A DNA stretch of 64,000 nt, taken from assembly GCA_963669155.1 (NCBI GenBank), contig OZ022589.1, positions 8,265,641 to 8,329,640 on the forward strand, in the 5' to 3' direction. Made by a program: the position numbers and the translations under genes. The stretch comes from Arbacia lixula (Eukaryota; Echinodermata; Echinoidea; Arbacioida; Arbaciidae). The notes below the pieces were generated by a model that was not told where the DNA came from, ran no database searches, and worked only from the letters and a program-made list of their open reading frames with translations. Every line of letters starts with the position of its first letter. Within the stretch, counting starts at the first letter, position 1. Positions 2,317-47,865 of this stretch are shown here, one piece after another.

Positions 2317-2329
2317 AAAAACAAAATTT

Positions 2330-2485
2330 TTAAATCTAAGACCAAACAATCCTCCAAACTAAGGCCCCGTAATTAAGCACAGATTTAGAGCCTTGTCTTT
2401 ACTCCAGACCTAGTTTTTCCAACATTTTGAAAAAATCTTAAAAACTTAGACCTCATCATCTTATTCCTGCGGAATAACCTTCCCC
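2330..2485. repeat. Continuation of the array interrupted by the L2 LINE
   Basis: Carries AGCCTTGTCTTTACTCCAG and CATCATCTTATTCCTGCGGA, matching the blocks at 930-1200. Confidence 0.5.
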
Positions 2486-8803: not shown

Positions 8804-9437
8804 AGTACACATTTGCACATGAAACACACTCATATTATGAAGTTGAATGTGTCAAAATGTAAAAAACACACATTTTGAGGAAAATTGTCTCAGGGTCATA
8901 GAAGATCAAATATTTTCATTCCTTGGAGTTTTACGGTTATCAAAACATCTTCATAACAAAATAAATTGACATATACCAAAGAAATATACAATTTTGATGA
9001 CGTTAACAGGTGCTAAATTGAAAAAAAAAACATGATTTTGACATCAATGACCTTTCAAGGTCACTAGAAGCTTAGGTCATAACAGTGACATTTACCAAAA
9101 AAACACACCATTTTCATGAAAGTACACATTTGCACATGAAACACACTCATATTATGAAGTTGAATGTGTCAAAATGTAAAAAACACACATTTTGAGGAAA
9201 ATTGTCTCAGGGTCATAGAAGATCAAATATTTTCATTCCTTGGAGTTTTACGGTTATCAAAACATCTTCATAACAAAATAAATTGACATATACCAAAGAT
9301 ATATACAATTTTGATGACGTTAACAGGTGCTAAATTGAAAAAAAAAACATGATTTTGACATCAATGACCTTTCAAGGTCACTAGAAGCTTAGGTCATAAC
9401 AGTGACATTTACCAAAGAAACACACCATTTTCATGAA
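8804..9437. repeat. Recent tandem duplication, about 317-bp unit
   Basis: Positions 8804-9120 and 9121-9437 are nearly identical (starting AGTACACATTTGCACATGAA); only a few substitutions or small indels are visible. Confidence 0.9.
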
Positions 9438-10205
9438 GGTAGCAGGTGCTAAATTGAAAAAAGCATGATTTTGACGTCAATGAAGATTGAAGGTCACAGG
9501 AGGTCACGAGAGGTCAAGTACAAAGTGCTTCCATAGCTTTAATCGAAGCTTAGGTCATAACGATGACATATACCAAAGAAATATATAATTTTAATGAAGT
9601 TACCTTGTGCCAAAGTGAAAAAACATGATTTTGACGTCAATGACCTTTCAAGGTCACCAGAAGTTACCAGAGGTCACCAGAGGTCAAGTACAAAGTGCTT
9701 CCATAGCTTTAATCGAAGCTTAGGTCATAACGATGACATATACCAAAGAAATATATAATTTTAATGAAGTTACCTTGTGCCGAAGTGAAAAAACATGATT
9801 TTGACGTCAATGACCTTTCAAGGTCACCAGAGGTCACCAGAGGTCAAATACAAAGTGCTTCCATAGCTTTAATCGAAGCTTAGGTCATAACGATGACATA
9901 TACCAAAGAAATATATAATTTTAATGAAGTTACCATGTGCCAAAGTGAAGAAACATGATTTTGACGTCAATGACCTTTCAAGGTCACCAGAGGTCACCAG
10001 AGGTCAAGTACAAAGTGCTTCCATAGCTTTAATCGAAGCTTAGGTCATAACGATGACATATACCAAAGAAATATATAATTTTAATGAAGTTAGCTTGTGC
10101 CAAAGTGAAAAAACATGATTTTGACGTCAATGACCTTTCAAGGTCACCAGAGGTCACCAAAGGTCAAGTCCAAAGTGCTTCCATAGCTTAAATGAAAGCT
10201 TGAGT
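9437..10205 (-). repeat. Tandem array, about 160-bp unit (right arm, inverted)
   Basis: CCATAGCTTTAATCGAAGCT recurs at 9531, 9701, 9861, 10021 and, varied, 10181. Each unit carries AGGTCACCAGAGGTCACCAG and TGACCTTTCAAGGTCA. Diverged copies extend into 9000-9120. Confidence 0.9.
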
Positions 10206-10392
10206 CACAAAGATGATATGGTGAAAATTTCATGCTTTAGTCATCAAGTGCACAATTGTTGAGGTTAACTGCCTAACTATATTACTAATGGTAACTTCAA
10301 AGCTTGTCCGATGTTTGTTAGCAACAACTAATAGATTCAGAGTGCATTCCGTCCATTGTAAATGAATAAAGTTGTGAATACATTACGAAAAT

Positions 10393-18244: not shown

Positions 18245-18411
18245 AGGGTTACAGTTCGATACTCCGAAGGTTAGTTAATTCGATGGTTCGTTATTCCGAA
18301 GGTTCGTAATTCCGAAACAAGTAAATTGCCTATACCTCGATGCTCGTTAGTCCGAAAACGAAAAAGGGTTCGTTATTTCGACCATTTGTCGTGCAACGTT
18401 CGGAATAACGA
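18245..18411. mobile_element. TTCCGAA-type MITE, copy 2, overlapping the receptor's last exon
   Basis: Aligns with 4434-4636 from CAGTTCGATACTCCGAAGG to GTTCGGAATAACGATTGCTT. On the minus strand it supplies the last codons and the stop of the receptor-GTPase gene. Confidence 0.75.
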
Positions 18412-18659
18412 TTGCTTCACCCTTTCTCGTTCTGCGATCTCCAAATTGTAAATGTTCAGATCGCAGGTTCTCAAAGCTAATTTTAAGAACTCCAGAAACG
18501 CAATATCCTTTTCGACGTCCTCAACATGGTTATCGCTGGTGTAATTCTCGAAGAACCAAATGTTTTCTTTCGGGATGCTAGTAGTGACGAGATCATCCCT
18601 GAGACGGTCCACGTCCTCGATGTCGTCCTTGTGTGTGACAACCAGCAGTGGTGAGCGGT
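18373..18659 (-). CDS. Exon 10: GTPase G4 (THKD), C-terminal helices and repeat-derived stop
   Basis: Acceptor TTTATCATAG|AC, phase 1. It encodes RSPLLVVTHKDDIEDVDR (G4-like THKD), then IWFFENYTSDNH, corresponding to the G5 region with the NY seen in IFI44-like proteins, and the helix IAFLEFLKLALRTCDL. The last 13 codons or so (QSLFRTLHDKWSK and stop) lie in the TTCCGAA repeat at 18245-18411, so the present C-terminus is repeat-derived. A candidate AATAAA on this strand lies at 17929-17934. Confidence 0.78.
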
Positions 18660-21600
18660 CTATGATAAAGACACAACATTTAATGAAGAGCTTGCTTATA
18701 AAAGATGCAAGCATGAGAGCTAACTTTCTTCGGGCCAGCCCCATATTTGACGTTTCTAAAGGAGAATGGCAGGCCAGAGTTGATCTCGAAAGAAGCAGAA
18801 ATATCTAAAAAAACACAGTCATCTAAAACATGTGTAACAATTGGCGTGACATCACAGGCGCACTTTAGGCCAACTGCAACTCCCGCGTCGTACCATTACG
18901 ATGCTCCCCCACACACTCCCACACCCCCTCCCCTATACGCTCGGAAACGTTGTGCTTTTAATTCCGCTGCTGAGCTGTGAAAGGCCATGACTGCCACACT
19001 TCATATACTCATACGTATACGAATTGTTGCAGTCATGGCCCTCCATAGAGAGCTACGTGCTTGCGTAGATGAGCTAGCTGAATGAATGTCCCCCGCAAAG
19101 TGCGCCTGTTACGCCATGATGTCATGTTCTCGGGCGGCAAACTTTATATTTTATTCAAATATAATATAATATAGTATTCCTGAATGCCCTACTAGGACGC
19201 TCCTAATAGTTAGGGAGGGTTTGACGCCCAGTACGCATTTATTAGGCAGTGGAGAGATGTGTTTCATTTATAAATAGCCAATCACAATATCTCATCTGGA
19301 CTTTCACCTAGGCTTTATCCCAACTCTGTGGCCGCGCAACCATAGAAATATTAGATTTGGAATTGTCGGTAGTTTTTTTTTTATGAAAGGTGATCGCTAT
19401 CAGAAGAGGTAAACACGATTTAACTTGAAACATCTTGAAGGTAAAAATTTACGATGATTATATCAAAGATGAGTAGAAGCATTTATATGACATGATAACA
19501 TTTGTAGGTGTTGATCGTTATTCTGATGGTTCATTGTTCCATAGAAACATATTGTGTTTCCCCGGGGGGGGGGGGGGGGGGTCGAGTTCTTGACAGTGAC
19601 ATTGTTTGAATACACGCTTTGTACATTTCTTGAAGAGATCTTACTGTAAAATTCATGCATCTCCTTGGTAAACTCGTTGATAAAACTCAATGCGACATCG
19701 TTTTCATATCTCCTGAAAGAGAGGAAAAATGGGGAGGTGTTGGTATTAGGGTGGATGTTACAATTTTATTCAAATTACACATCATAAAAAATATCATCAA
19801 GATATTAAGCATCATCTACTTAAATGGGAATGGAGTCGTGATTATGTGCTGATAATACAGGCAGACAAGTTATAATCAATTATTTGTATTTTATCCAAGG
19901 TACACACGTGATGCTGTGGATAGTGTCTTATGTTCACACGGTTTACAACAAGAATGGGAATTGTGGATCAATGGAGATGCCCATTAAGGATTATAATTCG
20001 ACAGTTATCGTGATTGACGAAAATTAAAAAATTCCTTCTAAGACGCCTCACTTTTTTTTTCAAACATCGGCCATTCGGTTTTTTCTGAGTGTTCTGTTTT
20101 ACTTCAATCAAATCGCTGTCAGTGATTTTTTTTATATCATTTTTTGATGATTTCTCCAAAACGCATGAAAGGCTTTATATATGAGAATACATGCACAATG
20201 CGTGTTACACATGTAACGAACAACTGTTCTAATTCACAGATTATCAGATAAAATCGCAAGCAATTTACGGTTTTGAATGTGAAACAAGACAACACATCAC
20301 TATTAATCACTATTAATCAAACTATTAATTCAGTGCGAACTTACCAGGAATGGTATACAAAGACCGGACAGTGCACAACGTTTCCTTTCCTCTCAGACCT
20401 TGTCAGAGGCTTTGAAGGGTCAAAGCCACGTTGTCCCCCTATCGAGAGTCCACACAATCACTGTATTTACAGCTCCCCTCCAACCATAGAGCCATATATA
20501 ATAAGACCTTAAGTAAGACCTAACGTCAAAATATGAACACACAGAATAGTAAAAAGAAGCACATAGCACAACTTTTTTTGAAAACAAGTTTTGTTCATAA
20601 TAACTTGGCAGGATTGTTTCTTAAATTCTTGACTAGCTTCTATGTAAAAAAGATTTGACCCATTTAGTCAAACATGAGTGAGCACAAATTATAGGCAAAA
20701 CTGTCATAATGGGAAAATGTGGCTTTTGCAATCTTCTCATGTAGCTAACTTACAGAAGCTGCATTCCCGAAACGATTACTTTCTATCAATCACATAGGTG
20801 AATTATAGGGATAAGTAAAAAGTATGTGCATAAATTTGCATAATTATATAATAATGAATACATTTTGATTACAATCGAAAATGTGCTTATGCACAAGGAA
20901 ATTACTTCCCAAGTGACATATGTGCCGAATTTTGTGACCGTCGCGCGTTTCGTTGCAGATATCGGAGGGGGGGGGGGGGGGCGTAATGCCCCCCGCAAAA
21001 TTTATATACTATAGTCTATAATACATGGTTGAGTGAATACACATTTAAAGGCACAATGGGGGTATTCAACTGCATGAATATTATTGCATTATTTCACGTA
21101 AATCAAAGGTAAAGGGCACTATTCGTGCTTTGAAGGGCAAGTTTACTCATTAAACATGCCAATTATATTTAAAACTTCATTCAAAATAATTAAAAATGGC
21201 TTCAAATGACGGACTTTGGTTGAGAAAGTACCAGACGAAGCCCGTTTAAATACTTTTCGGTTTCAGTCGCCAAAGCGTACGCCGAGTAAACTTACAGGAG
21301 TCGTCATTTTCCGCGCTTCCATTCAAAATTGTGACGTCACATATGAACATATTAAACCTCTACACCCATTGGTTGCAATTTGTATTTTCTCGTGCCGTAA
21401 TATTAGTAAAAGTATAAATATCAATTCCAAACTTCTGTTATCGCTAGACTGCTTTTACTAGAAACAAAAACATATTTAATAAAAAGATTATCATTCGTTA
21501 ATAACATATACATTTTTTTTTACCTTTTAGTATTTCCTTTGTAACGACAATCCAACAACAAATCAGAGGTATTTTCCAGCTGATTTTCAGACATTTTCAG

Positions 21601-24600
21601 ACATTGTTGCCCACTCATGCATGACTAATGTAGAGCGCTCAGAAAATCAGCTGGAGAATAAGCCATTATTGTATCAACAACTTTCCCCCTAACTGTCTGA
21701 TTACGCGTTATTACATCCACCTGCATTTCGTGACTCAGTTTCAATGGATGGAACGCACTCTGAATCTATTAGTTGTTGCTACTCGGACAAACCTCGGACA
21801 AGCTTTTAGGTTACCAATAGTAACGCATTGTTTGAACGACGTGAATAAAGTCCGCATACATAACGAAAATGGTCTATTCTTCCAATTTGCTGTTAAAAAT
21901 ATTTTATTAAATATGTTTTTATTTGTTTGTAATAGCAGTCTAGAAATTTTGGATTTGATATTGATACGTTTATTGATATAACGGCACGAGAGTGTACAGA
22001 ATAGAACTAATGGGCGCAGAGGTTTAATTTGTTCGTATGTGATGTAACAGTTTTGAATGGCAGCGCGGAAAGTGGCGACTCCCGTAAGTTTGCTCGGCGT
22101 ACGCTTTGGCGACTGAAACTGTACTTTCCTAACTAAAATATGTCATTTTACAGCCATTTTTAATTATTTTGAGTGAAGTTTTAAACAGAATTTAATGGGT
22201 AAACTTGCCCTTTAACGTGTGTCATTCAATTATACATTTTCCACCATGTCACGCTTGAATAATTGCTTAAAAAGTCCATTTCAAATGATTAACAGATATC
22301 AAATAAGCTGCCAGGAAGACTAATTCATGATTTTAGGATTTAATGTGTTACTCAATGTCTGCAAAGGCCTCCTCACTCATTTTCTGATATTACGTGACAT
22401 TTTATGTTAAAATTTCCGAGCCAAGTGAATACTTCAATTGATATCAATAGTTGTAATCCAATCAGCATTCTCACCCAATATTGTATCAAGTAAAGAATGC
22501 CTGATAACACAGAAAATATTCTTTATGAATAATCAAAGCTACAAGGTTAACATGCAGATCTCACACGAAACTTTAATCAAAAAACATAATTTTAATCTGG
22601 ATGAAAAAAAATATATCAATGGCTTGGCAGTACATTTTCGCTTTCTGTATCTTTTAACTCACTAACAATAGAAATTCGAATGGAAAATGTAAGTTACAGT
22701 ATCATACAATATGTGAGGAGGTCATTACAGGCATAGAATTACACCTTAGATCCAAAAATAAATCTGACACCTTTTCTCATCATATTTGATTTTTATCTTA
22801 TCATTCAAATTTGAGTTCTTGAATCTTATTTGTGTACCTCCTCAAGCGTGACATAATGGACAATGTTTATTAACATCATGAAAAACATTTAGCAAAATTG
22901 GTAACATTCACCTGTAAAATGTGCCGTGATTTCGATGGTGGAATATACCTATTGTGCCTGATATATTGTGTTCACTCAACCATGCAATATCGATTACAAT
23001 ATCAGAATAGGTCTGAGAAAGTTGATAACGGATGCAGTGATATATATACGATGCTTAAATCAACAAATTATTAGTAAATGAACATATGCATTTATTCCAT
23101 AATACCATTACATGTTAGGAACATAACGTGTGCTCACTCAACCATGACACCACAACTACCTCTTATGATCATAAAACATCTGATGATACATGATGTTAAC
23201 AATATCTGACGTCGATTTATTCAATAGGACAGTTAAACATAACTTTTTCGCCTCTAGAATTGTGATCAGGTAACCGTGCAGAAGCGCGAAAAGTGTCAGG
23301 ATACGTGTGAGAGGGAGAAACAACGGATGATCAAACAACAACAGCCCTTTCACATACACCAGTAGAAAATACAGAAGGATCTTAAATTCTGCAGATGTCA
23401 ACGGGTCATCAGCAGTACACCAGGGATCACAGGTGTTTCAGCCATTTGAGTGCTGTACACCTCCTCCTGGCTGGCCAGTGCTACGCTGGAATACCCTGGA
23501 CAGCACCCCCGTTGACACCTGAGTGATCTGGATTGTCCAGAAAACACTACGATGCCTTCCGAACAGAATTCGCCAAAATCTTGTTTCATAGACCTCAAAA
23601 ACTGACTCTCAAGACTTTTGAATAATGTCAAATTTGCCTTTAATCTGTGTTCACTCATGAATGACTGACTGAATAAAATTACAAATTATCAAATTTTCAT
23701 ACGGATTTTAGTCAATAAGTTAAAAAAATCCTCTTAAGTAATATTGTTGAAAAACTTTTTTCGATAAAAAAAGTTATGCTATTTTGCTTGGTAGGGGGGG
23801 GGGGGAGGGGGGGGGGGCTTCCTGTTTTGAGTATGTTTATATAGCTATATTTCTGTAACCCACTTGCCGGGAGCTCAACAATGAGGGCGTCATACAACGA
23901 AACTCCGCCCTACTTAGATCTATAATCAGGGGAAATCATGTCAATAGAAATACCTTCTCTTACTGTCCATCTCATTGAAGGGTTTCACGACTTGCTTGTC
24001 TGAGTAAAGCTTTGTTTCGTTTGTATGGACAATATGAATATGAGGGAAAGAAAGAAATATTTCAAATTGAATCGAATTGTGCAACTACGGCGGGTACGGT
24101 ACCTTGCATTCGTAGTGTCAAAACAACATAATCATTTATGACATGAATATAAACACATTAATTTATACATGTATAGTGAAACTTACGGAGCTGGGCCCTG
24201 ATATCACGCATGTTGGGATCAGCGAAGTCCTTCATACCACGGTTGTCCAAGATGCGTGCAGGTAACGGTGTCCCGCTTCCACCGACGAGGGGGTATGGGA
24301 GACGAGAGGCTGTCTTGCCCCCTCCTCCTAAAGAGCCTTCCTCCGACAAGATTGCGTAATCACCTGTCAGGTCAAACAAAAGATTATTTACACCTCTCTA
24401 TGCCTGTCAGTACACTGATCTATTAGAGCAAGCACATGTTGCTACTCTCGCACGGAAAAGGTTATCAAGAGAGAATCATCAGTGTTTCTCAGATTTTTTT
24501 TTTTTAGCTTTTCAGTGTTTTTCAGGCACGGGGCGTTATGTTACATGAACTACAATACGTAATGACTTGACATTACGTTCGTTTGTATGAGGTGTTAAAG

Positions 24601-33600: not shown

Positions 33601-36600
33601 TCTTTTCTATTTTACACAGGTGCCAGCTTGCATCCAACAGCTCTTAAGATATTGGGGAAAACAGATTGATGACGGACGGACAGAATTCTATTTCCAAGAC
33701 CACTTTTGGTGGATAGGTAAGACTGGTACCTTGCAACAAGCGCCTTTCTTCGTCTGTTTGCACCTGCAGTGATACGGCGCCCTTTCCTGCATCGGGTCTC
33801 CTCAGCCACGGTATCCGGTTAAGAATGGCATGACCTACGGGGATGCATTCGTATGAGACGACCACACAATTAGTATTTATTGTTAGTCAAAGCGAATAGT
33901 TCAAGGGATAGGTCATCCCTGAATTATTTTTTGTTTCAATTAAAGAAGAGACATGAAAGAAACATATTAATGAAGTTTTGATGAAAATCCGTCAAAGGAT
34001 AAGAAAGTTATTTGATTTTACAGTTTTAATTTTTTGACGTCACCTGTTTTTTTTTCGTACAGGTACGTGTGTAAAAACGTATTTCCAATGATGTATCAAA
34101 TGCACAGATAAAAGGATGCATATATTTTCGAGAGAAAAAAATAGTACACAACATGTAGGAGAACACCTCGCATGTGACGTCACAAAATCAAAACTTTAAA
34201 ATTCAATAACTGTCTTTCCCTTTGAAGGATTTTCGTCAAACCTTTACTAATATGTTTCTTTCATGTGCGTCTTTTTATTGAAATCAAAGTAATTCCAGGG
34301 TGAACTTTAAAATTGCATTAATAATTTTTTGCACAGTATAAAGGATTTGACATTAGTATTTGTATGCTTCTGATATGGGTACAACCAGTTTTATTGGATA
34401 ATATTGCTATGATTGGTAGTACTAGAATTATGGCTATACGGTTTTAAGTATATTGTCACAACTGTCCCAATGTAATGATTAAAGAGATGATACTCTCGGT
34501 CTAAGAGAATTTTTTTTAATTGCATGCATTTGGTACAAGCACAAATGAAGTGGCGAATGTGATTACAACTAAAGCAGGCCATATGAGTTTATATACCGTA
34601 TCTTCGTCCCCATCTCCACGCCTGAATTACCCACCTTATACTAGGTCTCCAAAAACATTAAAAAAATTGACACCATATAACCAGTATATGATGATTATTT
34701 TTAGCTTCATTTCAGTTGTGACTTATTTGCTTTGATATTTCCAAAGTGTAGAATTATTTTTTGAACACTTAGTTTTTAGGTTTAGGTTTATCATCATCAA
34801 AAGAATGAAATCGTTATCAGTATATCATGATAGAATTTGCATTAGCGTTGTCTTTCAGTCATTATTAGGTCTTATAGTCATTTCGGTATCGATGAAATAA
34901 TATCGGTAGTTTTATGCTCGGTGAAACTACTAGTATATAGAAGTAATATCGATATTGGTACGGGCATTATTTTATCTACATGTATTAGTATGATACATCG
35001 ATTTGTATCAATGGTTGCCGCAATGTGCCATCGGATATTTATCATGGTTCCTTCCTGCCGCGTTGTGCGGTCCCCATAATCACGGTATTTCCGTGGTAGT
35101 TGGTGCGTTAATGAAAGAACCATGGAACCGTCATATTACCATGGTATTTTAGTGGCAACTTCGAGGCTTTTCGCCAATGACACAGAAAGTTCATGATACA
35201 CATTTCTAAGATACTTTCAGACTAACCGCTCATCACCATGAGAATGGTACCACGGGAATAATTAATTCAGTACTAGTATTTAGAGTGGCATTGTTACTAG
35301 AATCAGTGTTAGTACTCTGGAGTATGTATTATTCGTTCCTAGTCTGACCTCAGCATCAGCAACTACATTACCTCGTTTGGAGAGTCTGCCCCGCTTTCGC
35401 CTATACAATGCCAGCGCCAACAGCGCCAGCACCACCACCGCACAGATCAAAACTAGGCTAAAGATGGCAATCACTACCGCAACCCCAATGGAGAGTCCTT
35501 TCTTCTCTTCCGGTGAAATGGCTGAAAGAAAAGATGGAAGTAAGCACACAATGGCTGATATAATGACACCCTGTACGTTTTGCACCGGAAGTAGATTAAA
35601 TCAACCGAGAAGGTGCTATGAAAATATGTTTCCCATACTTTTAGATTTTTTTATAGAAATTTTCTTCACCTAGCTTTGAAACATTCCTTACAATCTTTCA
35701 TATATTCATGAGCACATTGTGATATCACACGTTATTCAAAAGGTTAAATCAACATAACACACAATATTTGGCAACTCACCTTTTCAGCTGCCAATGCTCA
35801 CAATAGCAGGACAGATTGTCATACCATACCACCTCACAACCTTTCTCACTTCAGCGCTTGGAAATGCTGAAATAGCATAATCTACATGGTTGCTGGGTGG
35901 TACTCATTTAAACACCTGCCATTCTATTGTGAGCATTAGCAGCTCACTAGATCAGTTGCATGATATTATGTATTGTTATAATGATTTTTCCTGCTAGTCG
36001 GTGACAGGTGATGTCACAAGGTACTCATGAACATATGGAGGATATTAAGGGGCGTTTCTTAATTATGTAAAGAAGACTTTAGTGAAACATAATTTTTAAA
36101 TACGGGAAACATATTTTCACGGTTATTATACGGTTTTTAAGTTCCTAATGTATGAACCAAGATGCACCACTAGAAGCCCACATGTATTTCCATAATAGTG
36201 AACCTTTAAGATGACTTTTAACCGCCAGTACAAATCATTTGCCCATTGAACGTGTTGATTTCTTTTAGGCGTTCTTGACGGTTTGAATTTACCCGTGTTC
36301 AAACTGCGTTGGTGACGTAGTCACGCCGCAAATTAGTGTTTGTGTACGGTGTTAACACGGTCTTTGGCGGAGCATGACGAATTGCAGGGCCCCTACGAAG
36401 AATACTGAATAAATGTATGATACAAATGTACATGAATAGATTGCCGAATCGCCATGAGTGCCATTTAAACCGGCATTGCCTGATCGCATATCGAGCAGTT
36501 TCGCGCAACCATTGACATTGTTGGCGTGTCTGCCTACCTGATAAGGCTTTGACCGTTATGTGCGTCACCAGGTCTGTGCCGTTGGTCGCTTCTCCGCTCA

Positions 36601-39600
36601 CCGTACACGTGAAGTTCTGGTCCAGGCGTTCCTTGGCATCCACGCTCACGGTCACGTCCATATCGAACGTACCGCCCGGCCCAGCCCGCTTATCCGAGGT
36701 GCCGAGCGGTTGCAGATCCCGCCCGACACCGTCTTCCACGACGGACCAGACTACAGACACATCAGGCCTAAACCCACCCACGCGGCACACCAGGTTGAAC
36801 TTAGGAAAGCTGCGCGAGGTGGAGGTTGTGCAGTGATTCGGTGGAGAGGGGAGGGAGGAGGGCGATGACGACGATGCATCCAATGGCGTTTCATCGCACT
36901 GTTCAATCACAGGTTCGAATGGCAGGGCTGCATAAGAGTAGTGATAAGAACACAAGTAATTCAAACATTTCTTTCTTCATAAAATGGTTTATAACATCAA
37001 AAATCTATAAAATCCTTGCTGTATTTAGCTGTATTTGATAGGCATAAGGTCAAATATAATTACACGATGAATTAGACACGACTCCTAATTTTTCCATGAA
37101 TATGTCTGCCGCCTGGGCTTCTTTTCATCATCATCATGATCATTGGTTATCGTTTTGTTCTTAACTCTGCAGTTTGAAGCAATGTAGTCTCTCAAGTTAT
37201 GTCCAACTGCAACCACATCAAAACTACTATAGTTCAAGTGCAAAGAGTGTCAAGTTTTTGACAAAACGTTCTATATCTTCAAGCAACCAGAAATCAGCTT
37301 CTCTGATGATTTATATAGCACTGTAGAAAGAAATGTCTACCTACGTGAAGAACAAACATACCATATCTAGTACCCATACTTTTGGTAAACCCCATATCGT
37401 GTTTCTGCTATTTCTGGCATACCTGCATGGGCAAAATATGTCAGGATAACTCTTAGTGACATAGATGTAAAATGACTCCTATGCAATACGAATATAATTT
37501 TTATCTGATATTTTGTATTATATTCCACATACTAAGAATGTTGCTATATGATTGGTCAAGAGTTGATCACGTGATGAAGCGTAGTTTTTCCCATCTGATC
37601 ACCTGAGAAGAAAAGTTCGTTACACTGTAGGTGATAGTACTTTTTTGAGAAGGAAAGTTCGTTACACTCTAGGTGATAGTACTTTTTGGTTTCGCTGATC
37701 TCTTCACTCCTCACAGTCCTAACGCGTGATCAATATTTTGAGTACGCGCGAAATAAAAGTGCGTAGCTCGGACTATCGGCGCAGACGACACCGCGGTGCG
37801 CGCGCGGAAATTAAAATTTTTGGTTATAGCGCGCTGCGCCGCGGGCGTACGTACAAAGCAGTGCAAGTCTTCCATTTCCCCCACACAGTATTTCACCAAA
37901 GCAAGTGTACAATTCTCTACCACCTCGTACCAAAATTGACCTAGAATTTCACATTCCTGTAATTTATTAGAATTATGAAGAGTATTCTCGGAGGATCTAT
38001 GTTCTCACCGATACCGCACAGGTAAGAGAATTTCGATTACTTCTTGCTTTTCCGTCAAAATCTTACAAATTAGCGTCACTATGTCATAGTGTTCGTTGGA
38101 ATTTGTAGAGTCTACAGTTGGCAGCAAAATTATTCAACCCCCCTCTCATTTTTGACATTCTGTCATAATGAATAATATTGCAGCAGCAGATTGCTACTAA
38201 ACCATTAAGATAGTTAGCAGACAGTTAATTACTTTGCAGAACGTTACCATGGTTACTGTGTTTTGACAACACATGGTTTGTGTCAGGTAGGCCTCTATGA
38301 CGTGCAGCTATTAATATGTGGCGCCTACATAGTAAGCAAATAATCAACGTTGGTGAAGGTGATGGGACGAGCTATCACTTCCGAGGCGATCTGGATGTAG
38401 CTATCTTTGCGAAGCGCAGCTGAGGAAATATAGCGTTTATATTCAGACCGCCGAGGAAGTGGTAGTTCGTCTCATTGCCTGAAACCAAAAGTTGATTATG
38501 TACTTTATATTCTACATCTGAAACCAACTATCTATACCAAAAATGTCAATTTGACGTACAAAAGAAATGTTTACTTCTCTACCTAACCCCGAGCTGCTGC
38601 CATGGGGAACACGCGTATGGGACGCGTCAGTGGGAGCTACTAGTCAATTTATAGTCCAAGTATAACGCACTTTTATTTCGCGCGTACTCAAAATATTGAT
38701 CACGCGTTACGACTGTGAGGAGTGAAGAGATCAGCGAAACTAAAAAGTATTATATTCCACATACTAAGAATGTTGCTATATGATTGGTCAAGAGTTGATC
38801 ACGTGATGAGGCGTAGTTTTTCCTATTAGATCACCTGAGAATAAAAGTTCGTTACACTCTAGGTGATAGTACTTTTTGGTTTCGCTGATCTCTTCACTCC
38901 TCACAGTCCTAATGCGTGATTAATATTTTGAGTACGCGCTATCTTTCCTCAGCTGCGCTTCGCAAAGATAGCTACATCCAGATCGCCTCGGAAGTGATAG
39001 CTCGTCCCATCACCTTCACCAACGTTGATTATTTGCTTACTATCACCTAGAGTGTAACCAACTTTTCTTCTTAGGTGATCAGAATGGCGAAACTACACTT
39101 TATTACGTGATCAACTCTTTACCAATCATATAGCAACATTATTAGTATGTGGAATGTAATAAGCAATACTTTCTTATAGTTCCCGATGCTTTTTTTCCTG
39201 AATTGTTGTTGTTGTTGCTGGTTGATTTTAGGCGAGTGTTCAATCACACCCGATTATTTTGACGCTGGCATTGTAGTGGGTCTAATGCTATCGCTAATAA
39301 TGTTTGTTAGAGGTGCATTTAAGTTCATTAGAAGTTTTTTTTAAATTTTTTTGGTCTTTGACAATTCATTTAACTCTTTTTCTCTCATGATTTTCAGCGC
39401 GCATATTTTTATCAAAAAAGGGAGGAGAATAAAAGAGAAGGAATTTAAGGAAATGTTTTACCATCTTTTTGACATGTATGAGACAAGAACTATAGACTGA
39501 GGGAGAAAGAGACCGAAAAAAAGAGAAGAAAACGAAGAACATTATGTTTTTGTATCCTGTAAATACTGTAACATATCTAGCATGTTTTTGTAATTCCTAT

Positions 39601-42600: not shown

Positions 42601-45600
42601 TACGTTCTTAAATACAAAGTAACCGATACTTTCTTACCATAAATGGCCAGCTCCCACGAAACTTGGTAGGTTTCACTGCCTATCTCTGTGGAAACATCAC
42701 ACCTGTATTCCCCCTCATCGTCTACCCCCAGGTCGCGAATAGTGAGAGAGTTGTCTAGATTCAGGACGAATCGCTCGCTGGTACCCGAGCGCTCGCCCTT
42801 GAAGAGTGACGCCTTTAAGACTTTGTCCTCAGGATGCGTCTGGTTGAGGTGATACCAGAACACCGCACGGAGTTCGACGGAGAAGTTGCATGGGAGAGTC
42901 GCCTCGTGCCCCGTCCAGCCCACGATAGTTTTGGTGTCTTGGGTGTCTTAAGATGAAGGATTCAAAATGGTAAAGAAGGGAAGATGAATTTTACAAATAA
43001 AGGCAAGAATTGTGTATATAAATGCAGAAGAGGGGATGTAGTAAGCGAGAGAATAGGAAACTGATTGGATGGGCAAAGCGGGTGAGAAAGTTGGGGGAGC
43101 ACATACGTTGAACATGTTCTTTCATGCTGAACGGAGATGTGTCCAATCAATTAATCAATCTGAATCCTCTGTCACGTCATTAGGGTCGCAAGATCCATGA
43201 ATTGGCGGACAGTTTAACCACCCAGCTCCCCCGTTTAAATCTTCTACGTTTAAAAATAAACGATCAAAACTGCCGCCGTACTCTGGTGTGAGCGGGGGGT
43301 GTGAGTGTATCTGTCTGTAAGGAGAGATCCACCCAACACAGGAGAGACGGCTGATCGAAGGGATGGGAGGACAACATGACAATATGGGCTGAGGGAGGGT
43401 ACACGCTGGCATGACGTCATCGAGGGCAGGTCTAGGCCTCGACCTTGGGCTTGCGCTGTCATAGCCATCATAGCCATTTTGGACGCCATTTTGAAAAATG
43501 TCGTCTGAAGGGCAAATTGTTAAGTGCCTCTATATCTAATTTTGTTAAGTTAATAATCCTTGACATATATACCAAATTTGGTGCTTGTAGGTAAAATAGA
43601 ACAGAATAAATTAAAAAAAACATCGGTCTGGCAGCCATTTTAGACGCCATCTTGGAAAATGGCGTCTCAAAGTCAAATGTTTAAATGCCGCTATATACAA
43701 TTTTATTCAATTGATAATTATTAAGCTATGTAGCAAATTTGGTGCTTGTAGGTAAATATATAACAAAATAAAGTAAAAAAAAAATCAGTCTGGCAGCCAC
43801 TTTCGACGCCATCTTGAAAAATGGCGTCTCAAAGTCAAATGTTTAAGTGCCTCTATATCAAATTTTATTCAGTTCATAATTATTAAGCTATGTACCAAAT
43901 TTGGTGCTTGTAGATAAATGTAGAACAGAATAATGCTGAATACAGCGGTTTGGCAGCCATTTTGGACGCCTTCGTGGGAAGTGGTGTCTCAAGGTCAAAA
44001 GTACCTCTATATCCAATTTTGTTTCGTATATAATTCTAAACATGTATACCAAATTTGGTGCTTGTAGACAAAAGGGCAAAATTTATCTCATATTTGATGC
44101 TTAACTACCTCACTATAATAAAGCCTCATCTAATAACTATTTTGTTGAATTTATGCTTCATTTCTTATTACACATAAATAAAAAAAACGATCTTAGAATG
44201 CAGTGAAGCTTTCAATACAAATATGAAAACCGCCCTAAGCCATGTAAGTGGAGAGCCATTTTGGTCGACTTTCGCGTCGAAGATGGCACATGATGATGAT
44301 GGTGTTATCTCGATTGTTCAGAGAGGGGCATAAGGAGAGAGGTGAAACTGCGAAACGAATACGCAAGAGGTCATCTGAGATACGAATCGAGCATGCACAG
44401 TTCTGCAACATGATAGAGGGCTCATAATATCAATTCACGTTTTGCAATACATACAGCATATTATTCACTTCATCAGACATCTGAGCCATGTCATTATCAC
44501 ATATTATTGCCCCGCTTTAGAGAGGCCAAATAGATAGCGGGCCGAAAAATCGTGTATTGCCCGCCAACGAAAGTCAATGGGATTTTACGTGTAAAGTAGC
44601 GGGCAATAAACTAAAGGGAAATCGTTTCATCATCATCTATCGGCCGCAGCCGAGATGCTGTTAACCACATAGCTCCAAAGGACGACGACCCCTTTTGGCA
44701 CGGTAACTTCCAACATATGACGTCTGAGTCTATTTGATCGATCGCACGATATGACAGTGACAGGAAATCGTGCAGGGCGTTTGGCAACAGAAGATGAAAT
44801 TGGAGAGATATCTCCATATATCTGTGCTTTGGTTTTGTGCTCAAGCCAGGATATATTTTGAACTCGCATAAGGAGCTTGGTGTAGGTGCCATCCAGTCTA
44901 TCCTTTCTTCATGGTCCAGGTCTCAGATTCATAATTTTACACAGGCTCTAAAGAATTTCAGCTTGGTTGACTTGGATATACCAGCTTGCCACAAATGGTG
45001 TCGTTTATTGCAGGCATTCCAAGCCTGTCCTTTTCGTGACAGGAAGTCTTTCTTGCTGTCGGCAAAATAGGATCCCAGATACTTGAAGTCCTGACCTCTT
45101 TGACTTGGGTACCATCTGTAGTGCAGATAGGTTGATGATGAACTTCCTCGTTGACGGTCATATATTCTGTCCTCTTGGCATTTAGATGTAGACCGACTTT
45201 GTCTGCAGCATTCTCGGCCGGGTGCTGTTAGTAGATCTTGTGCACCACATATCAGATCAGCTGTTAGAGCTAGATCATCTGCGTAGTCAAGGTCTGTGAA
45301 ATACTGACTTTGGTGACGTCTAGAACGCTTGGGTTTGATGGTGAGTCCTTTGTCGTTCATGATGTCAAGACTCTGTCTGAGGATGTAATCAAACACGACT
45401 ACAAAGAGATATGGAGCAAGAGTATCTCCTTGGAGGATTCCAGTAGTTGGTAGGAACTCCTTTGTGGGGCACATCCATGGGCTGCACAAGGGTATATGGG
45501 TTATCATACAAGATGGCAATTACCTTCACAGTCTCATCTAGTACACCGTAGTTGGCGAGAATATCTGAGGGCAAGTATCTGGGTTTAGTGCTGATCTGTC

Positions 45601-47865
45601 TTTGCGAAAACCATTCTGATTCCGTCTGAGAATGGGATCTGTGTGAGGAGTGATTCTGTTGAGCAGCATGGAGTTGTAGATCTTAGAGGCCAGTGGAGAC
45701 AGTGTGATTCCGCTGTAGCTTTCGGGTTGTTGGAGGTCGCCTTTCTTTGGTAGAGGAATAATGAATGATGTTGAGAAGGCAGCTGGTTTGTTGGTGTTGT
45801 TCAGTTTCTTCAGGCAGATCTGAAGCTCCTCTATAGTGAAAGGTCCGGTCTGGATGGGAAGGGTGTCTGCGATCTTGTGATTGTAGAAAGGTTCATCAAG
45901 GTCAGTGTTATTCTGAACCGGCTTGCCAAGTAGAGAACTTAAGTGCTGAAACCAAGTGTCAAGGCGCTCTTCAGTTGTTTCACCTTTGATTCTTATAGAT
46001 GGGATAGCCTTCTTATCAGTCAGCTCCCTCAGGGCTTCCCAGGCAGCAGCATGCTTGTTTTCATGATGTAGGGTGTCAAGTGCTGCAGCCTTGGACTTAA
46101 CGTGCTCCTCAAGCACCACAGCGTAAGCATCATCAAGTGCAGTCTTAGCAGCATCAAGGTTCTGCTTGGAACTCTTAGTGGATTTTGGTGGATTCTGACA
46201 ATAACTTATCTGGCTCCTGCAAGAGACAATTCTTTGATCAGACTTAACAGCTTCAAAAGTGTTGTAGGCTCTTGAGCTCTATGCTGTTAATCCACTTCTT
46301 TCTGACCAGAATATAGTCCAATTGGACAAGTTCACCGTTTGGGTAGCGGTGTGTCCACAGTCTGCCTGCCTGACTTTGGTATCCTGTGTTAGTGGTAAAC
46401 AAGGTTAAATTGTTCCATGAAGTCCTTCAGGTACAATCCAGGTCTGTTGGATCCATTGTTGCAAGTGAACAGCGCGTCATTAGACCCAAGCTTAGCATTG
46501 TAATCTCCAGGGATGTACAGAAGATTATGGGCTAGAACTGTACTGGTTGCAGTGGAAAGTTCATGGTAAAAGTGGCACATGACTTGAGAGCCTTATGTGA
46601 TAAAAGAAACCCCACACCTCCTGTAGCTGCATATCTCTTGTTCTTCAAGGCAGAGGTTGTAATAAGTGCATAGCCCTGGATATTCTCCTGTAGTAGAGGT
46701 TCACTGTGCACAATGCGTTGTTCTTGTATGCAGAGGATATCGATGTCATACGGTTGTGCTTCATGTACGAGTCCTTCTTTCTTGGTTGTTGTTGATAGTG
46801 TCTGGACATTAAATGTGCTAATGATGAAGGCATTCTTGCGTCTAACAAATTTGTCCATGCATCTTTTGTCAGTATCAGGGTTGGACCGTCCATTAGGCTT
46901 TAGGACTAACCCATCATGTGTATTGGTGACCAACGTTGACTCAGAAGGCACAGACTTGAAACCAGGGCCTCCAGCACCCTTTTCTGTTGGGATAGGTCCC
47001 TTAGCCTTTGTCTTTCACGATGACACTCTGCAAAGCAGCAGCATAAGAGCAAGAGGGTAAGTAAGAGTAGTAAGTAAGCAAGTAAGAGAGAGAGTCAACA
47101 TTTGGCCCAGTTGCCACCCGTACTGGGGATACGCCGTCACCGCCACTATCGGGAACTGTGTGTATGTACCCTCCTGTGGCATCAGTGAAGTCTTGACTTT
47201 TCCAAGCATCCAGGCGCCTTTAAACCTACCTTACCAACATAGACACATGCCCTAGGCAATTGAATGTTGGGAAAGATGAGAGCTAGGAAGGCGGAAAGTG
47301 GAAAGGTGGCTATGGGAGGTATAGGGCGCCCTGTCCCTCACTCTGGTCAAGAACCAGCCTACCATCATCATTTCATAATCACTCTTAATCACGATATCGA
47401 TAGCTTCGGGAACATTGCCATTGGGGTGTTCTTTTTACACGAAGTTCAGCGCAGACTTGCAAGTGAGCTTTATTCACGCTAGATCTGTGTTTATCAATGT
47501 TTTCGAGTTCGCTCTGATGTCCGATTTTATTGATAATAATGATATGGTCTGGCTCCTTTCGTGGGATACGACATTGATTGCCATCAGTAGCATCGTATTG
47601 CACTAGTCTTCGATTTGGGCAATGCTAATTCAGGCAAGAAATGTTATATCCCCCTCAAGGTCAGTCCATATCTTATTATCATTCAATGCAACATTCAAAC
47701 ACATGCTGACATAACATAATCATACAACGGAATGCATGATGATTCAGCGGATAGATGACGTATGACCAGACGAAACTAGTTATTGTCCATACCTTGTGAC
47801 GACGATGGTTGGATGTGGAGAAGTAACATGACGAGAAACAGCGGTAAAATATAACACGACTCCAT
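18373..47865 (-). CDS. Ig-domain transmembrane receptor with cytosolic IFI44-like GTPase domain (whole gene, 10 coding exons)
   Basis: Assembled by eye from minus-strand exons 47793-47865, 42638-42946, 36538-36927, 35372-35521, 33730-33834, 31074-31250, 24187-24363, 20345-20438, 19645-19712 and 18373-18659. All introns have GT/AG ends; all are phase 1 except the one between the 94-nt and 68-nt exons (phase 2). The joined frame is 1830 nt, 609 residues plus stop. Domains: signal peptide 1-24, V-type Ig about 28-127 (C44, W55, C107), Ser/Pro linker 144-157, second Ig about 168-257 (C175, W188, C235), TM helix 266-296, basic stretch 297-307, GTPase about 376-585. Inferred role: a cell-surface recognition receptor, perhaps immune, with a GTP-binding tail. 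The alternative is two adjacent genes (Ig receptor and GTPase); exon 5 lacks an in-frame ATG, which favours one transcript. No identical architecture is known to me. Confidence 0.72.
18843..19125. repeat. Inverted repeat in intron 9
   Basis: GGCGTGACATCACAGGCGCA at 18844 returns inverted as TGCGCCTGTTACGCCATGAT near 19098, with an inner pair AGGCCATGACTGCC / GCAGTCATGGCCCT near 18983 and 19031. Confidence 0.75.
19645..19712 (-). CDS. Exon 9: 68-nt exon encoding the helix before G4
   Basis: A 68-nt exon with a strong acceptor (TTTTTCCTCTCTTTCAG|GAG), phase 2 in, phase 1 out, donor TACA|GTAAGA. It encodes RYENDVALSFINEFTKEMHE..., an amphipathic helix, and restores frame exactly between exon 8 and exon 10. 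The result is the continuous helix-strand EFYNRSPLLVVTHKD expected in this fold. Confidence 0.7.
20345..20438 (-). CDS. Exon 8: GTPase beta-strand exon (94 nt)
   Basis: A small exon, phase 1 in and phase 2 out. It completes a LRGQRGFDP motif across the junction and encodes GNVVHCPVFVYHS, a hydrophobic beta strand as expected between G3 and G4. Acceptor GATAG|GGGG is only moderate; donor TCCTG|GTAAGT is strong. Without this and the next exon the G3 to G4 distance would be far too short for a GTPase. One arm of a foldback repeat begins within about 100 bp. Confidence 0.7.
20505..23850. mobile_element. Foldback element C (third family member), expanded interior
   Basis: Left arm near 20560-20700 (TAACTTGGCAGGATTGTTTC, AACATGAGTGAGCACAAAT) and right arm near 23615-23850 (TTGCCTTTAATCTGTGTTCA, AGTTATGCTATTTTGCTTGG) are in opposite orientation. 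The interior contains another foldback at 21135-22218, so the element is nested or the arms come from separate copies. Confidence 0.55.
21135..22218. mobile_element. Long inverted-repeat element, arms about 280 bp
   Basis: TTTCAGTCGCCAAAGCGTAC and GCCGAGTAAACTTAC at 21265-21298 return inverted as GTAAGTTTGCTCGGCGTACG at 22085. Outer limits are AAGGGCAAGTTTAC and GTAAACTTGCCCTTT. Between the arms, 21740-21868 matches the inverted end of the 5.2-kb composite foldback. Confidence 0.85.
24187..24363 (-). CDS. Exon 7: GTPase middle part with switch regions and G3 (DNRG)
   Basis: A phase 1-1 exon of 177 nt. It starts with DYAILSEEGSLGGGG, a KTASRLPYPL stretch whose Thr could serve as G2, and ends with ARILDNRGMKDFADPNMRD; DNRG fits the G3 consensus DxxG. 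Acceptor CTGACAG|GT, donor CTCC|GTAAGT. The two 177-nt GTPase exons have the same length and phase. Confidence 0.8.
24364..25250. other. Receptor intron 6, no gene; simple repeats
   Basis: (AAAC)n at 24706-24726 and A-rich stretches; a G-run at 25088-25102. Confidence 0.5.
25250..25690 (-). mobile_element. LINE 3' end (RT C-terminal region)
   Basis: Minus-strand frames read IAWGNSGNTQLEKLYLLQKK then SLRIIF, and further on HIYPTRQATLFHLL...TRTHLA, the conserved C-terminal part of CR1/Jockey RTs. It belongs to the same LINE type as 27062-29150 and may be its displaced 3' part. Confidence 0.65.
25699..26642 (+). pseudogene. Penelope-like RT/GIY-YIG fusion with one premature stop
   Basis: Single frame broken only by TGA at 26311-26313, precisely at the junction of the CKGC-type Cys motif and the GIY-YIG domain (SYIGET). 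Otherwise the frame is open to 26642, suggesting a fairly recent insertion. Confidence 0.85.
26936..26992 (+). ncRNA. Candidate hammerhead ribozyme core of the Penelope-like element
   Basis: CTGACGA at 26940-26946 fits the conserved CUGANGA box and CGAAAC at 26978-26983 fits the GAAA box. Between them GTGT and ATAC can close a stem II with an inner CGG/CCG pair. Penelope-like elements are known to carry type I hammerheads in this position. Stems I and III were not confirmed. Confidence 0.4.
27062..29150 (-). mobile_element. CR1/Jockey-type LINE: endonuclease, linker and RT N-terminal half
   Basis: Reading down the minus strand: GGGVLFYIPKELDFPPIKEL (28685-28600), GDFNINLLHYNNNHDSHEFL and LIDNFFTNVL (28440-28270) of the APE endonuclease; PQSPWITHSLLRCINRKN (linker, 27990); then NYIPVSFLTAFSKILEK, SQYGFRSKRNITHAIL and GGIFLDFSKAFDTI (RT). 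Frameshifts and stops throughout. The palm with the catalytic ADD is missing; the copy ends where the Penelope-like element ends. Confidence 0.82.
29150..31070. other. Receptor intron 6, no gene recognised
   Basis: G-run at 29168-29184; a diverged duplication (ATGGCGAAGCGAATATTGA at 29713 and 29800; TCTTAGCTAAGTGGGT near 29762 and 29885); and a perfect palindrome at 30413-30437. Confidence 0.5.
30413..30437. repeat. Perfect 12-bp palindrome
   Basis: ACTTTTTTCGTA, one C, then TACGAAAAAAGT: perfect arms with a single-base centre. Confidence 0.95.
31074..31250 (-). CDS. Exon 6: GTPase N-terminal part with Walker A (G1)
   Basis: A phase 1-1 exon of 177 nt. A charged helix (AERRQEERSSLRADI) leads into beta-1 and the P-loop: TIALFGVMGAGKSALINSL, a clear GxxxxGKS motif at residues 383-390. 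This matches the IFI44-like/TRAFAC-type nucleotide-binding fold. Donor TCTG|GTAAGTG is strong; acceptor TTTAG|CTGAG has a weaker pyrimidine tract. An in-frame ATG at 31272, just upstream, could start a separate cytosolic GTPase if the fusion model is wrong. Confidence 0.8.
32773..33493 (+). mobile_element. hAT-like MITE, copy 1 (intron 5)
   Basis: Starts CAGGGATGTGTTAGGAAGGA and ends with the inverted TCCTTCCATACACATCCCT. Flanks CCTTGGGT and ACTTGGAT agree at 6 of 8 positions, consistent with an old 8-bp hAT duplication. Colinear with the inverted copy at 60093-60807. A 70-codon frame inside (32852-33064) is not selected. Confidence 0.82.
33730..33834 (-). CDS. Exon 5: cytosolic linker between TM and GTPase domain
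   Basis: A phase 1-1 exon of 105 nt (35 codons) encoding GHAILNRIPWLRRP... and ...QVQTDEERRLLQ. Acceptor CCCGTAG|GT and donor CAAG|GTACCAG. The frame has no ATG before the next upstream stop, so the exon must be internal, which supports joining the receptor exons to the GTPase exons. No recognisable domain; the GAGKG-like DAGKG is not a P-loop. Confidence 0.6.
33915..34301. mobile_element. Foldback MITE in intron 4
   Basis: CCCTGAATTATTTT... and GAAACATATTAATGAAGTTT with TTTGACGTCAC on the left return inverted as GTGACGTCACAAAAT ..., AATATGTTTCTTTCATG and AAAGTAATTCCAGGG on the right; arms about 130 bp. Confidence 0.85.
34310..35275. other. Receptor intron 4, nothing recognised
   Basis: A+T-rich sequence without conserved frames; G-to-T-rich stretch with many CGGTA words near 34880-35150. 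Confidence 0.4.
35372..35521 (-). CDS. Exon 4: transmembrane segment
   Basis: A phase 1-1 exon of 150 nt encoding a juxtamembrane ISPEEKK, a long hydrophobic run from GLSIGVAVVIAIF to ALLALAL, and the stop-transfer sequence YRRKRGRLSKR. Acceptor TTTCTTTCAG|CC is strong and the donor is GAG|GTAATG. If that donor is not used the frame stays open to a stop at 35280, giving an alternative 30-residue tail with no GTPase. Confidence 0.82.
35788..35948. repeat. Inverted repeat in intron 3
   Basis: AGCTGCCAATGCTCACAATA near 35796 returns inverted as TATTGTGAGCATTAGCAGCT ending near 35944; loop about 100 bp. Confidence 0.85.
36538..36927 (-). CDS. Exon 3: Ser/Pro-rich linker and C1-like immunoglobulin domain
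   Basis: A symmetric phase 1-1 exon of 390 nt. It begins with FEPVIEQCDE, passes through a Ser/Pro-rich stretch (DASSSSPSSLPSPP) and then carries an Ig domain with FNLVCRVGGFRPDV, VVW and NFTCTVSGEATNG. The motif C-x-V-x-G-F-x-P-x-V-x-V-x-W resembles C1-set domains (MHC, TCR, B7), but an I-set or generic invertebrate Ig assignment is also possible. Two extra Cys (138 and 160) flank the linker and may form their own disulfide. N-glycosylation sequons NFT and NGT are visible. Acceptor TATGCAG|CC, donor TCAG|GTAGGC. Confidence 0.82.
37505..39170. mobile_element. Rearranged inverted-repeat element in intron 2
   Basis: TTATATTCCACATACTAAGA opens at 37518 and again at 38750, and returns inverted near 39140-39160. 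TTTCGCTGATCTCTTCACTC occurs at 37681 and 38880 and inverted near 38720. A second inverted pair (AACGTTGGTGAAGGTGATGG at 38346; inverted near 39008) lies inside. No coding sequence. At least two nested copies or an internal inversion. Confidence 0.75.
38112..38145 (+). mobile_element. Tc1/mariner-like terminal repeat, single end
   Basis: TA followed by CAGTTGGCAGCAAAATTATT and a C-run resembles a Tc1-type terminus. No matching inverted end was found nearby, so it is a solo relic. Confidence 0.4.
39850..39882. repeat. (CA)n microsatellite
   Basis: Interrupted CA repeats with ACATACAT variants. Confidence 0.9.
40340..42480 (-). mobile_element. RNase H-bearing LINE (I-type), RT and RNase H remnants
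   Basis: Reading down the minus strand from 42.48 kb: VFLDLESAYVMLWRRGLL and KWIDSF, then ISIYADDLCIWFSSR at about 41.95 kb (YADD), then an intact 232-codon RNase H frame (40445-41143) with IFTDRSKLADGMTGVAF, RTEVIAILLALGLIE and FEWVPAHCGIAGNEHVDYLA. The TD, E and WVPAHCG motifs are those of LINE RNase H domains. The RT part is broken by stops. It lies in receptor intron 2, directly downstream of the V-domain exon. Confidence 0.82.
40445..41143 (-). pseudogene. LINE RNase H domain with C-terminal tail
   Basis: 232 codons open. Catalytic residues: D in FTDRSK (usually DGS; here DRS), E in MRTEVIAI, D in VIITDW (usually TDS), and the WVPAHCGI.GNE..D signature. The downstream part includes HRSRLGKCNSN, the usual RLGH-type tail. 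Confidence 0.8.
42638..42946 (-). CDS. Exon 2: V-type immunoglobulin domain
   Basis: A symmetric phase 1-1 exon of 309 nt encoding one Ig domain. Hallmarks are the first Cys in EATLPCNF, Trp in AVFWYH, and the second Cys in DDEGEYRCDV, with NSLTIRDLG just before it, as in V-set folds. A pyrimidine-rich tract precedes two equivalent acceptors, AG|ACACC, nine bases apart (exon starts 42946 or 42937). The donor is ATG|GTAAGA. The RT part of a LINE begins about 150 bp downstream. Confidence 0.85.
43470..44090. repeat. Tandem repeat of about 160 bp, four copies
   Basis: Each copy has CAGCCATTTTGGACGCCATC-like sequence, AAAATGGCGTCTCAAAGTCA, CCAAATTTGGTGCTTGTAGG and an A-run. Diverged relatives at 61470-61620, 61800-61930 and 63180-63330. 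Confidence 0.88.
44600..47260 (-). mobile_element. Near full-length APE-type LINE in receptor intron 1
   Basis: 5' end near 47260, with untranslated GAGTCAAGACTTCACTG-like sequence. The endonuclease reads FIISTFNVQTLS, DIDILCIQEQRIVHSE and GGVGFLLSHKALKS (46860-46580) and LLYIPGDYNAKLGSNDALF (46530-46450). RT: FIIPLPKKGDLQQPESYSGI, NRITPHTDPILRRNQNGFRK (45740-45590), TGILQGDTLAPYLFVVVF and DLDYADDLALTADL (45460-45250). The C-terminal part reads ISWLEHKTKAQIYGDISPIS (44850-44790). At least four frame breaks. I do not assign a clade (RTE-like is one possibility). Confidence 0.85.
47793..47865 (-). CDS. Exon 1: start codon and signal peptide
   Basis: The ATG at 47865 opens 24 codons, MESCYILPLFLV... 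followed by a Leu-rich core and a polar PSSSQ end, a typical cleavable signal peptide. The donor CAAG|GTATGG leaves phase 1, which matches the acceptor of the V-domain exon. An in-frame ATG upstream at 47991 would add 42 residues before this one; I chose the downstream Met because it places the hydrophobic core at the N-terminus. Confidence 0.7.

Follow-up and report, generated by a model that had tools for sequence, protein, structure and literature searches.

The question raised by this locus of the sea urchin Arbacia lixula is whether an immunoglobulin (Ig) receptor and a GTPase are encoded here by one gene, as a single chain, or by two neighbouring genes. Ig receptors usually signal via phosphotyrosine motifs, adaptors or kinases. 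The original prediction, made from the letters of the window (the entire analyzed stretch of 64,000 nucleotides), was that ten minus-strand exons form one frame of 609 residues, with two Ig domains, a transmembrane (TM) helix and a complete IFI44-like GTPase. The reading that we favor, tentatively and at somewhat less than an even chance, is that the gene encodes a sea-urchin type I single-pass receptor whose entire cytoplasmic tail is an IFI44/septin-related GTPase and in which ligand-induced clustering would drive the assembly of G domains.

Rebuilt from the raw sequence, the ten exons (Table 1) add up to 1830 nt and a single open frame of 609 residues; all nine junctions have a GT donor and an AG acceptor, each exon is open in the frame used, and the phases of exons 1 to 10 are 0, 1, 1, 1, 1, 1, 1, 1, 2 and 1. 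In tblastn searches of the window with eight related proteins (P0001-P0008, see below), exons 2, 3, 4, 5, 6, 7, 8 and 10 were matched in order, with exons 5 and 8 weak on their own (best E-values 0.42 and 0.05), and no match from these relatives was obtained for exons 1 and 9. Other sites in the window were matched by the same queries at E 0.5 or worse, except for matches that overlap or extend the eight exons. The splice signals and the ordered matches bear out the ten-exon frame, and all the cysteines (C44/C107 and C175/C235) and GTPase motifs (GVMGAGKS, DNRG and THKD) claimed for it are present in the model. Exon 5 is a phase 1-1 cassette and hence removable with the frame kept.

Table 1. 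Features of the Ig receptor-GTPase gene (positions are those of the window)
Feature	Positions	Strand	Content and evidence
Exon 1	47793..47865	-	Start codon and predicted signal peptide, residues 1-24; 24 of 24 residues identical among the four C14 copies
Exon 2	42638..42946	-	Ig domain 1, V-set, C44/C107; tblastn P0007, E 1.8e-13
Exon 3	36538..36927	-	Ig domain 2, C-like, C175/C235; tblastn P0002, E 1.2e-22
Exon 4	35372..35521	-	Extracellular stalk, TM helix, basic stop-transfer; hydropathy, tblastn P0002, E 1.8e-7
TM stretch, approximately residues 267-300	35394..35495	-	Kyte-Doolittle hydropathy
Exon 5	33730..33834	-	Juxtamembrane cassette, 35 codons, phase 1-1; aligned with Lytechinus P0001 and P0002
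Exon 6	31074..31250	-	Start of the GTPase: helix LRADITGYIPG, P-loop
Possible alternative start (ATG)	31251..31272	-	In frame with exon 6, reads through its acceptor
G1/P-loop GVMGAGKS, residues 383-390	31108..31131	-	
Exon 7	24187..24363	-	Switch region: conserved Thr (GGGGKT), DNRG
G3 motif DNRG, residues 441-444	24236..24247	-	
Exon 8	20345..20438	-	VHCPVFVY strand of the GTPase; best tblastn E 0.05 (P0006)
Exon 9	19645..19712	-	GTPase segment; present in all four C14 copies
Exon 10	18373..18659	-	THKD, FFENYT, C-terminal part, stop; tblastn P0005, E 1.4e-16
G4 motif THKD, residues 523-526	18625..18636	-	

Relatives were sought by searching 5.8 billion proteins with residues 310-609, which gave three matches, and with a TM plus GTPase profile, which recovered at least seven proteins among the 8000 candidates scored, including one already known, and missed P0001 and P0002. 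These searches yielded at least nine distinct proteins, eight of the urchin type and one fish IFI44-like protein (P0009; E 0.042). Five of the eight urchin-type proteins contain Ig, Ig, TM and GTPase in one chain, namely, P0001 (Lytechinus pictus LOC129264846), P0002 (Lytechinus variegatus LOC121422193), P0003 (528 residues, clustering with the urchin proteins), P0005 (Diadema setosum) and P0007 (Strongylocentrotus purpuratus LOC100890756 isoform X2, which ends prematurely within the GTPase). The remaining three are GTPase-only models: P0004 and P0006 from S. purpuratus (LOC576240, the model of which begins at the P-loop and is possibly partial, and LOC100891569) and P0008 from Diadema antillarum. 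The P0003 frame of 528 codons lies on a 1741-base contig, without introns, and is thus probably a transcript. The window model aligns with P0002 across residues 30-577, exon 5 included (318 bits, 38% identity); the exon 5 stretch is missing from P0003 and P0007. Where database names are given to the relatives, these are 'uncharacterized protein' or domain names, and no mention of the locus tags of five relatives was found in the open-access papers searched. None of the 8000 candidates scored in a homologue search with the Ig half reached E <= 1e-5, and because this search also missed the known relatives, the result is no evidence of absence. The sequences show a one-chain architecture, its occurrence in several urchin genera and an intact set of GTPase motifs in the window protein, and the homologues are not always two separate genes, the finding that would have spoken against a single receptor.

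We then searched the A. lixula genome (607 Mb, 590 contigs), in which the window corresponds to C14:8265641-8329640. Contig C14 carries four tandem copies including the window gene, all on the minus strand and about 66-68 kb apart, each with 10 of 10 exons in order, GT/AG ends and no internal stop. The encoded proteins have 609, 614, 615 and 611 residues, with all length changes in multiples of three. With 93-95% identity in the alignment of their gene spans, the copies must be recent; that the exons are hardly more conserved than the whole gene spans counts against our preferred reading. The second C14 copy (C14:8352239-8381724) has an open frame with Phe in place of Cys44 of Ig1 and DNRC in place of DNRG, and is possibly a decoy or a copy on its way out; both losses likewise count against our preferred reading. 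Three further copies on C19 each contain Ig1, Ig2, TM and exons 6, 7, 8 and 10 in order; their exons 1, 5 and 9 were unplaced in the exon-centered stretches that were read, and the absence of exon 5 comes from genome-wide searches, in which this exon matched C14 only. The gene belongs to a tandemly amplified family. At four more distant loci, Ig-like and GTPase matches share a strand and follow the same order. One of these (C12:12365318-12375723) was read and contains Ig1, Ig2, TM, P-loop and DNRG pieces; C12:20457919-20448612, C12:17935475-17943219 (one exon read) and C145:19549-4837 are candidate loci known from match coordinates.

A wrong joining of neighboring genes for an Ig receptor and a soluble GTPase might be suspected from the introns, which reach 6.7 kb between exons, and from GTPase matches without a nearby Ig match on C4, C8, C13, C26 and C77. 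However, single-chain relatives occur in three genera, one of them as an intron-less 528-residue frame, and both halves are in order in all seven close copies, which makes such an artefact highly improbable. On the strength of the single-chain relatives and the seven close genomic copies, we rejected a chance or misjoined frame, and the claim that both halves belong to one chain stands on the five urchin-type relatives and these seven copies. C1, C15 and a C12 cluster also carry Ig matches that lack a GTPase match. At C12:6009510-6765882, twelve V-set-like matches on both strands span 0.76 Mb, with 29-44% identity to Ig1 of Diadema P0005 and no GTPase match within the cluster at E <= 1e-3; this is a cluster of other Ig-domain genes.

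The window protein has the features of a type I receptor of the Ig superfamily: a predicted signal peptide, an Ig domain, one predicted TM and a basic stop-transfer sequence. Its first Ig domain scores above the Pfam cut-offs (ig, 41 bits; V-set, 37.8 bits), and it is the only one that does so, the second Ig being below the Pfam cut-off. The assignment of this second, putative Ig domain rests on the conserved cysteines and on relatives that pass the C1-set cut-off (P0002, P0003, P0005 and P0007; P0001 does not). Kyte-Doolittle means of the 19-residue windows starting at residues 264-282 are 1.9-3.4, with a maximum of 3.38, and YRRKRGR follows the hydrophobic stretch. From the signal peptide and the stop-transfer sequence, we infer a type I orientation, with the Ig domains outside and the GTPase inside. 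The solved-structure matches listed for the full sequence and for the full profile are generic Ig chains.

The tail is harder to name than the ectodomain. No Pfam GTPase model scored above its cut-off for the window protein, and the NCBIfam search gave weak generic matches only. A family profile built from six of the nine urchin sequences matched the fish IFI44-like protein P0009 with 37.1 bits (best domain 36.1 bits, E 2.2e-8 in a PDB-sized search space with filters off; the reversed P0009 control scored -1.5 bits) and septin-9 with 35.0 bits, across the G domain (best domain 30.5 bits, E 1e-7). P0009 was chosen from a far larger collection than septin-9, so that the small score gap does not decide between the two; the comparison with IFI44 covered this one fish protein. 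The hhalign comparison with P0009 gave a probability of 96.5% over 153 columns. The tail shares GKS, Thr and D..G with P0009, and GKS, D..G and HC with septin-9; in the profile alignment, the HC of the VHCPVFVY strand (exon 8) is found in septins too. The Pfam Septin model reached 13-18 bits in P0001, P0002, P0003 and P0005, against a cut-off of 26.2, and was not listed for the window protein. Neither AIG1 nor TLDc was listed at E <= 1 for the window protein and P0001-P0003 or at E <= 0.01 for P0004-P0008, and TLDc was likewise unlisted for P0009, a short isoform; AIG1 gave sub-cut-off matches with P0009 (20.2 bits) and a piece of the C4 locus (16.7 bits), against a cut-off of 27. At E <= 1, NACHT was not among the Pfam matches of the window protein. 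A NACHT or GIMAP/AIG1 tail was rejected, there being no such Pfam match at the E-values used, and so was a plain IFI44 assignment, because the TLDc part is missing and septin is nearly as close. The tail is best described as a probable IFI44/septin-related GTPase, for which IFI44-like is only narrowly the closest name. Of the original wording, 'complete IFI44-like GTPase', the clear G domain holds, whereas the completeness and the specific name are weakened by the missing TLDc part and the nearly equal septin-9 score.

The motifs expected of active GTPases at G1, the conserved Thr, G3 and G4 are present in the window protein as GVMGAGKS, T, DNRG and THKD. Across 10 aligned sequences (the window model and P0001-P0009), there is no variation in GKS of the P-loop, in the Thr or in D..G. 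The G4 motif, by contrast, is THKD in each of the seven close copies but THAD in P0003 and P0004, THAA in the two Lytechinus proteins, THKN in P0005 and P0008, THKG in P0006 and TKPD in fish P0009. The P-loop and D..G are thus kept better than the Asp of G4 that reads guanine, and since this Asp is Ala, Asn or Gly in relatives, guanine reading is not conserved, a point against our preferred reading.

Selection was estimated as dN/dS (w) pooled over the seven copies, with 5-95% ranges from 150 codon resamplings. The Ig exons have w of 0.37 (0.25-0.55) and the GTPase 0.65 (0.47-0.96); both halves are constrained on average across the seven copies. Within the GTPase, the values are 0.47 (0.21-0.90) for exon 6 with the P-loop, 0.45 (0.29-0.75) for exon 10 with G4/G5 and 1.83 (0.95-3.89) for exon 7. 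Among the C14 copies, w of the GTPase is 1.00 (0.64-1.61), a value compatible with relaxed constraint too, and that of exon 7 is 3.57 (1.59-10.47); among the C19 copies, the corresponding values are 0.52 (0.32-0.84) and 0.73 (0.31-2.25).

These data bear on an alternative under which the architecture is real, the tail binds nucleotide as a scaffold or docking domain rather than hydrolysing GTP as a switch, and recruited partners do the signaling. The replacement of the G4 Asp in five of the seven urchin-type relatives that reach G4, with the P-loop and D..G kept, argues for this possibility, as do DNRC in one of the four C14 copies and the GTPase w within C14. However, GKS and THKD are kept in all seven close copies, that of the window included, and the exons that carry the P-loop and G4/G5 are constrained across them. 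We regard a scaffold tail as unlikely, albeit a serious competitor of the receptor with GTPase assembly that we prefer.

The elevated exon 7 values could be taken further, to a one-piece receptor GTPase in which binding outside would drive nucleotide-dependent assembly of the G domains at the membrane, without an adaptor, kinase or phosphotyrosine relay, and in which the C14 array diversifies exon 7 and holds the Ig part constant, such that the copies would differ in their assembly partners and not in what they sense. Among the seven copies, 24 of the 58 exon 7 residues vary, with the GG..T core and the DNR triplet unchanged. The signal is a lead only, given the small samples, the related sequences and the many exons looked at, and the fact that w of exon 7 is not above 1 among the C19 copies takes further weight from this reading, which we consider distinctly unlikely.

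The constraint on the ectodomain raises the issue of what is recognized. A receptor for cell-cell or allorecognition contacts, not for microbes, the G domain of which would form homotypic clusters at contact sites, would agree with an Ig part that is constrained between copies, unlike an ectodomain expected to be driven by pathogens, and with the tandem family. Against this stands the description of IFI44, one relative of the tail, as an infection-induced gene (PMC6401078), and we judge a contact receptor to be improbable.

In phylogenetic trees, the seven copies are set apart for both halves (support 0.975 in the Ig tree and 1.000 in the G tree), as are the Lytechinus pair (0.999 and 1.000) and the strongylocentrotid-like proteins (0.996 and 1.000), an agreement that favors our preferred reading. 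The C14 group has support of 0.997 in the Ig tree and only 0.354 in the G tree; the C19 group has 0.937 in the G tree and is no group in the Ig tree. The low C14 value in the G tree and the missing C19 group in the Ig tree count against this reading. The G tree places P0008 and the C4 locus together (0.992) but also puts the diverged receptor locus of C12 on that side (0.895), and receptor and soluble forms are therefore not cleanly divided. P0006, P0008 and the C4 locus belong to the same DNxGM...FENYT family as the tail (the C4 piece that was read reaches only DNRGM), but no Ig or TM is seen in these models or in this piece.

The GTPase-only models of P0004, P0006 and P0008 and the possible alternative start invite another explanation, in which one locus makes two products, an Ig-TM receptor that ends early and a soluble GTPase that is started internally, with the full chain rare. 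The ATG at 31272 shares the frame of exon 6 and is identical in all four C14 copies, and an internal-start isoform is possible. However, CTG occupies this site in all three C19 copies, and the C14 copies are recent duplicates, so that an ATG shared by four of them is weak evidence. Furthermore, P0003 has everything in one frame, and exon 5 aligns with the Lytechinus proteins between TM and GTPase. Two separate products appear to us decidedly improbable.

Returning to the single-chain receptor with a GTPase tail, the mechanism that we propose would start with a ligand, or contact with a neighboring cell, clustering the ectodomains. Clustering would bring GTP-loaded G domains face to face, and the resulting G-domain dimer or oligomer at the membrane could then scaffold or power the response. 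Septins assemble through their G domains, which also mediate pairing in septins and related proteins. A nucleotide-bound assembly is proposed as the signal because of the septin relationship and of an analogue in the sea cucumber Apostichopus japonicus, AjNLRC4; by the same analogy, the response would most likely be cytoskeletal capture or uptake in immune cells. The architecture suggests how binding outside might be turned directly into GTPase assembly.

AjNLRC4 (Ig-TM-NACHT) is the nearest described receptor in the sources covered. Its Ig part is reported to bind bacteria, it dimerizes on infection, and its tail binds actin and drives phagocytosis (PMC8699970). Like the predicted urchin protein, it comes from an echinoderm and joins two Ig domains outside the cell, a TM and a P-loop NTPase inside in a single membrane-bound chain (PMC8699970); where the urchin protein has one TM and a GTPase of the septin/IFI44 type, AjNLRC4 has a second TM and NACHT. 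AjNLR-new, also from A. japonicus, is another membrane protein that combines Ig, TM and NACHT; it is described as having two TMs, with its NACHT domain outside the cell and its Ig part inside (PMC13133943), the reverse of the arrangement inferred here. In Aplysia, two predicted TLR genes contain ROC-COR (ROCO) domains, for which the authors suggest a possible novel function (PMC9334734); here too an innate receptor-type protein and a GTPase share a chain, but the receptor is of the LRR/TIR type, the GTPase is a ROCO one, and no Ig is reported (PMC9334734). The GIMAP/AIG1 proteins of Biomphalaria resemble the tail as immune-associated, septin-related GTPases with tandem amplification, and 12 of the genes have a TM; they differ in that none has a signal peptide, and immunoglobulin goes unmentioned in that paper (PMC7053062). 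According to the same paper, GIMAP/AIG1 genes are not known in Strongylocentrotus (PMC7053062), which agrees with the lack of an AIG1 match here.

Septins are similar through the septin-9 profile match across the G domain and differ in that the urchin protein is a membrane receptor. The probable likeness to IFI44/IFI44L lies in the G domain, by way of the fish protein P0009, which septin-9 nearly equals in profile score. To our knowledge, IFI44 has no Ig or TM. A putative TLDc part has been described for IFI44 (PMC5614904), and Ig-Ig-TM stands in its place in the urchin protein.

The original prediction knew of no described receptor of this architecture. With the terms used, no Ig-TM receptor carrying such a GTPase came up in the open-access papers searched; AjNLRC4 (PMC8699970) and the Aplysia ROC-COR TLRs (PMC9334734) are near precedents, and as an Ig-TM-NACHT receptor is already in print, Ig-TM-GTPase is not categorically new. 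What sets the urchin protein apart is an interferon-response/septin-type P-loop GTPase fixed to an Ig ectodomain, with the same chain in Diadema, Lytechinus and Strongylocentrotus. IFI44-like GTPases work by a poorly known mechanism, and such a receptor would be a natural form of them under the control of a ligand, amenable to testing in a classical model animal. Its existence alongside AjNLRC4 suggests that Ig receptors with NTPase tails arose more than once in echinoderms.

The window further contains mobile and repetitive elements. Reverse-transcriptase/RNase H frames (Pfam RVT_1 and RNase_H) at 1377-2357 (minus strand, outside the gene) and 40445-41143 (minus strand, intron 2) are retroelement remains. 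Two other long frames, 25699-26313 (plus strand, intron 6) and 44929-46119 (minus strand, intron 1), are retroelement-like by eye and match no Pfam family at E <= 0.001. Arrays of units of about 160 bases at 5355-6270 and 9384-10216 are mutual reverse complements, and the latter is adjoined by a 317-base tandem duplication with a 99% match (8804-9441). Shortly past the stop codon of the receptor gene, a 16-base repeat (GTTCGTTAWTCCGAAG) occupies 18254-18316 and recurs nearly unchanged 14 kb away, at 4448-4510; a 47-base piece made up of the end of the last exon and its flank has an 83% match at 4556-4602.
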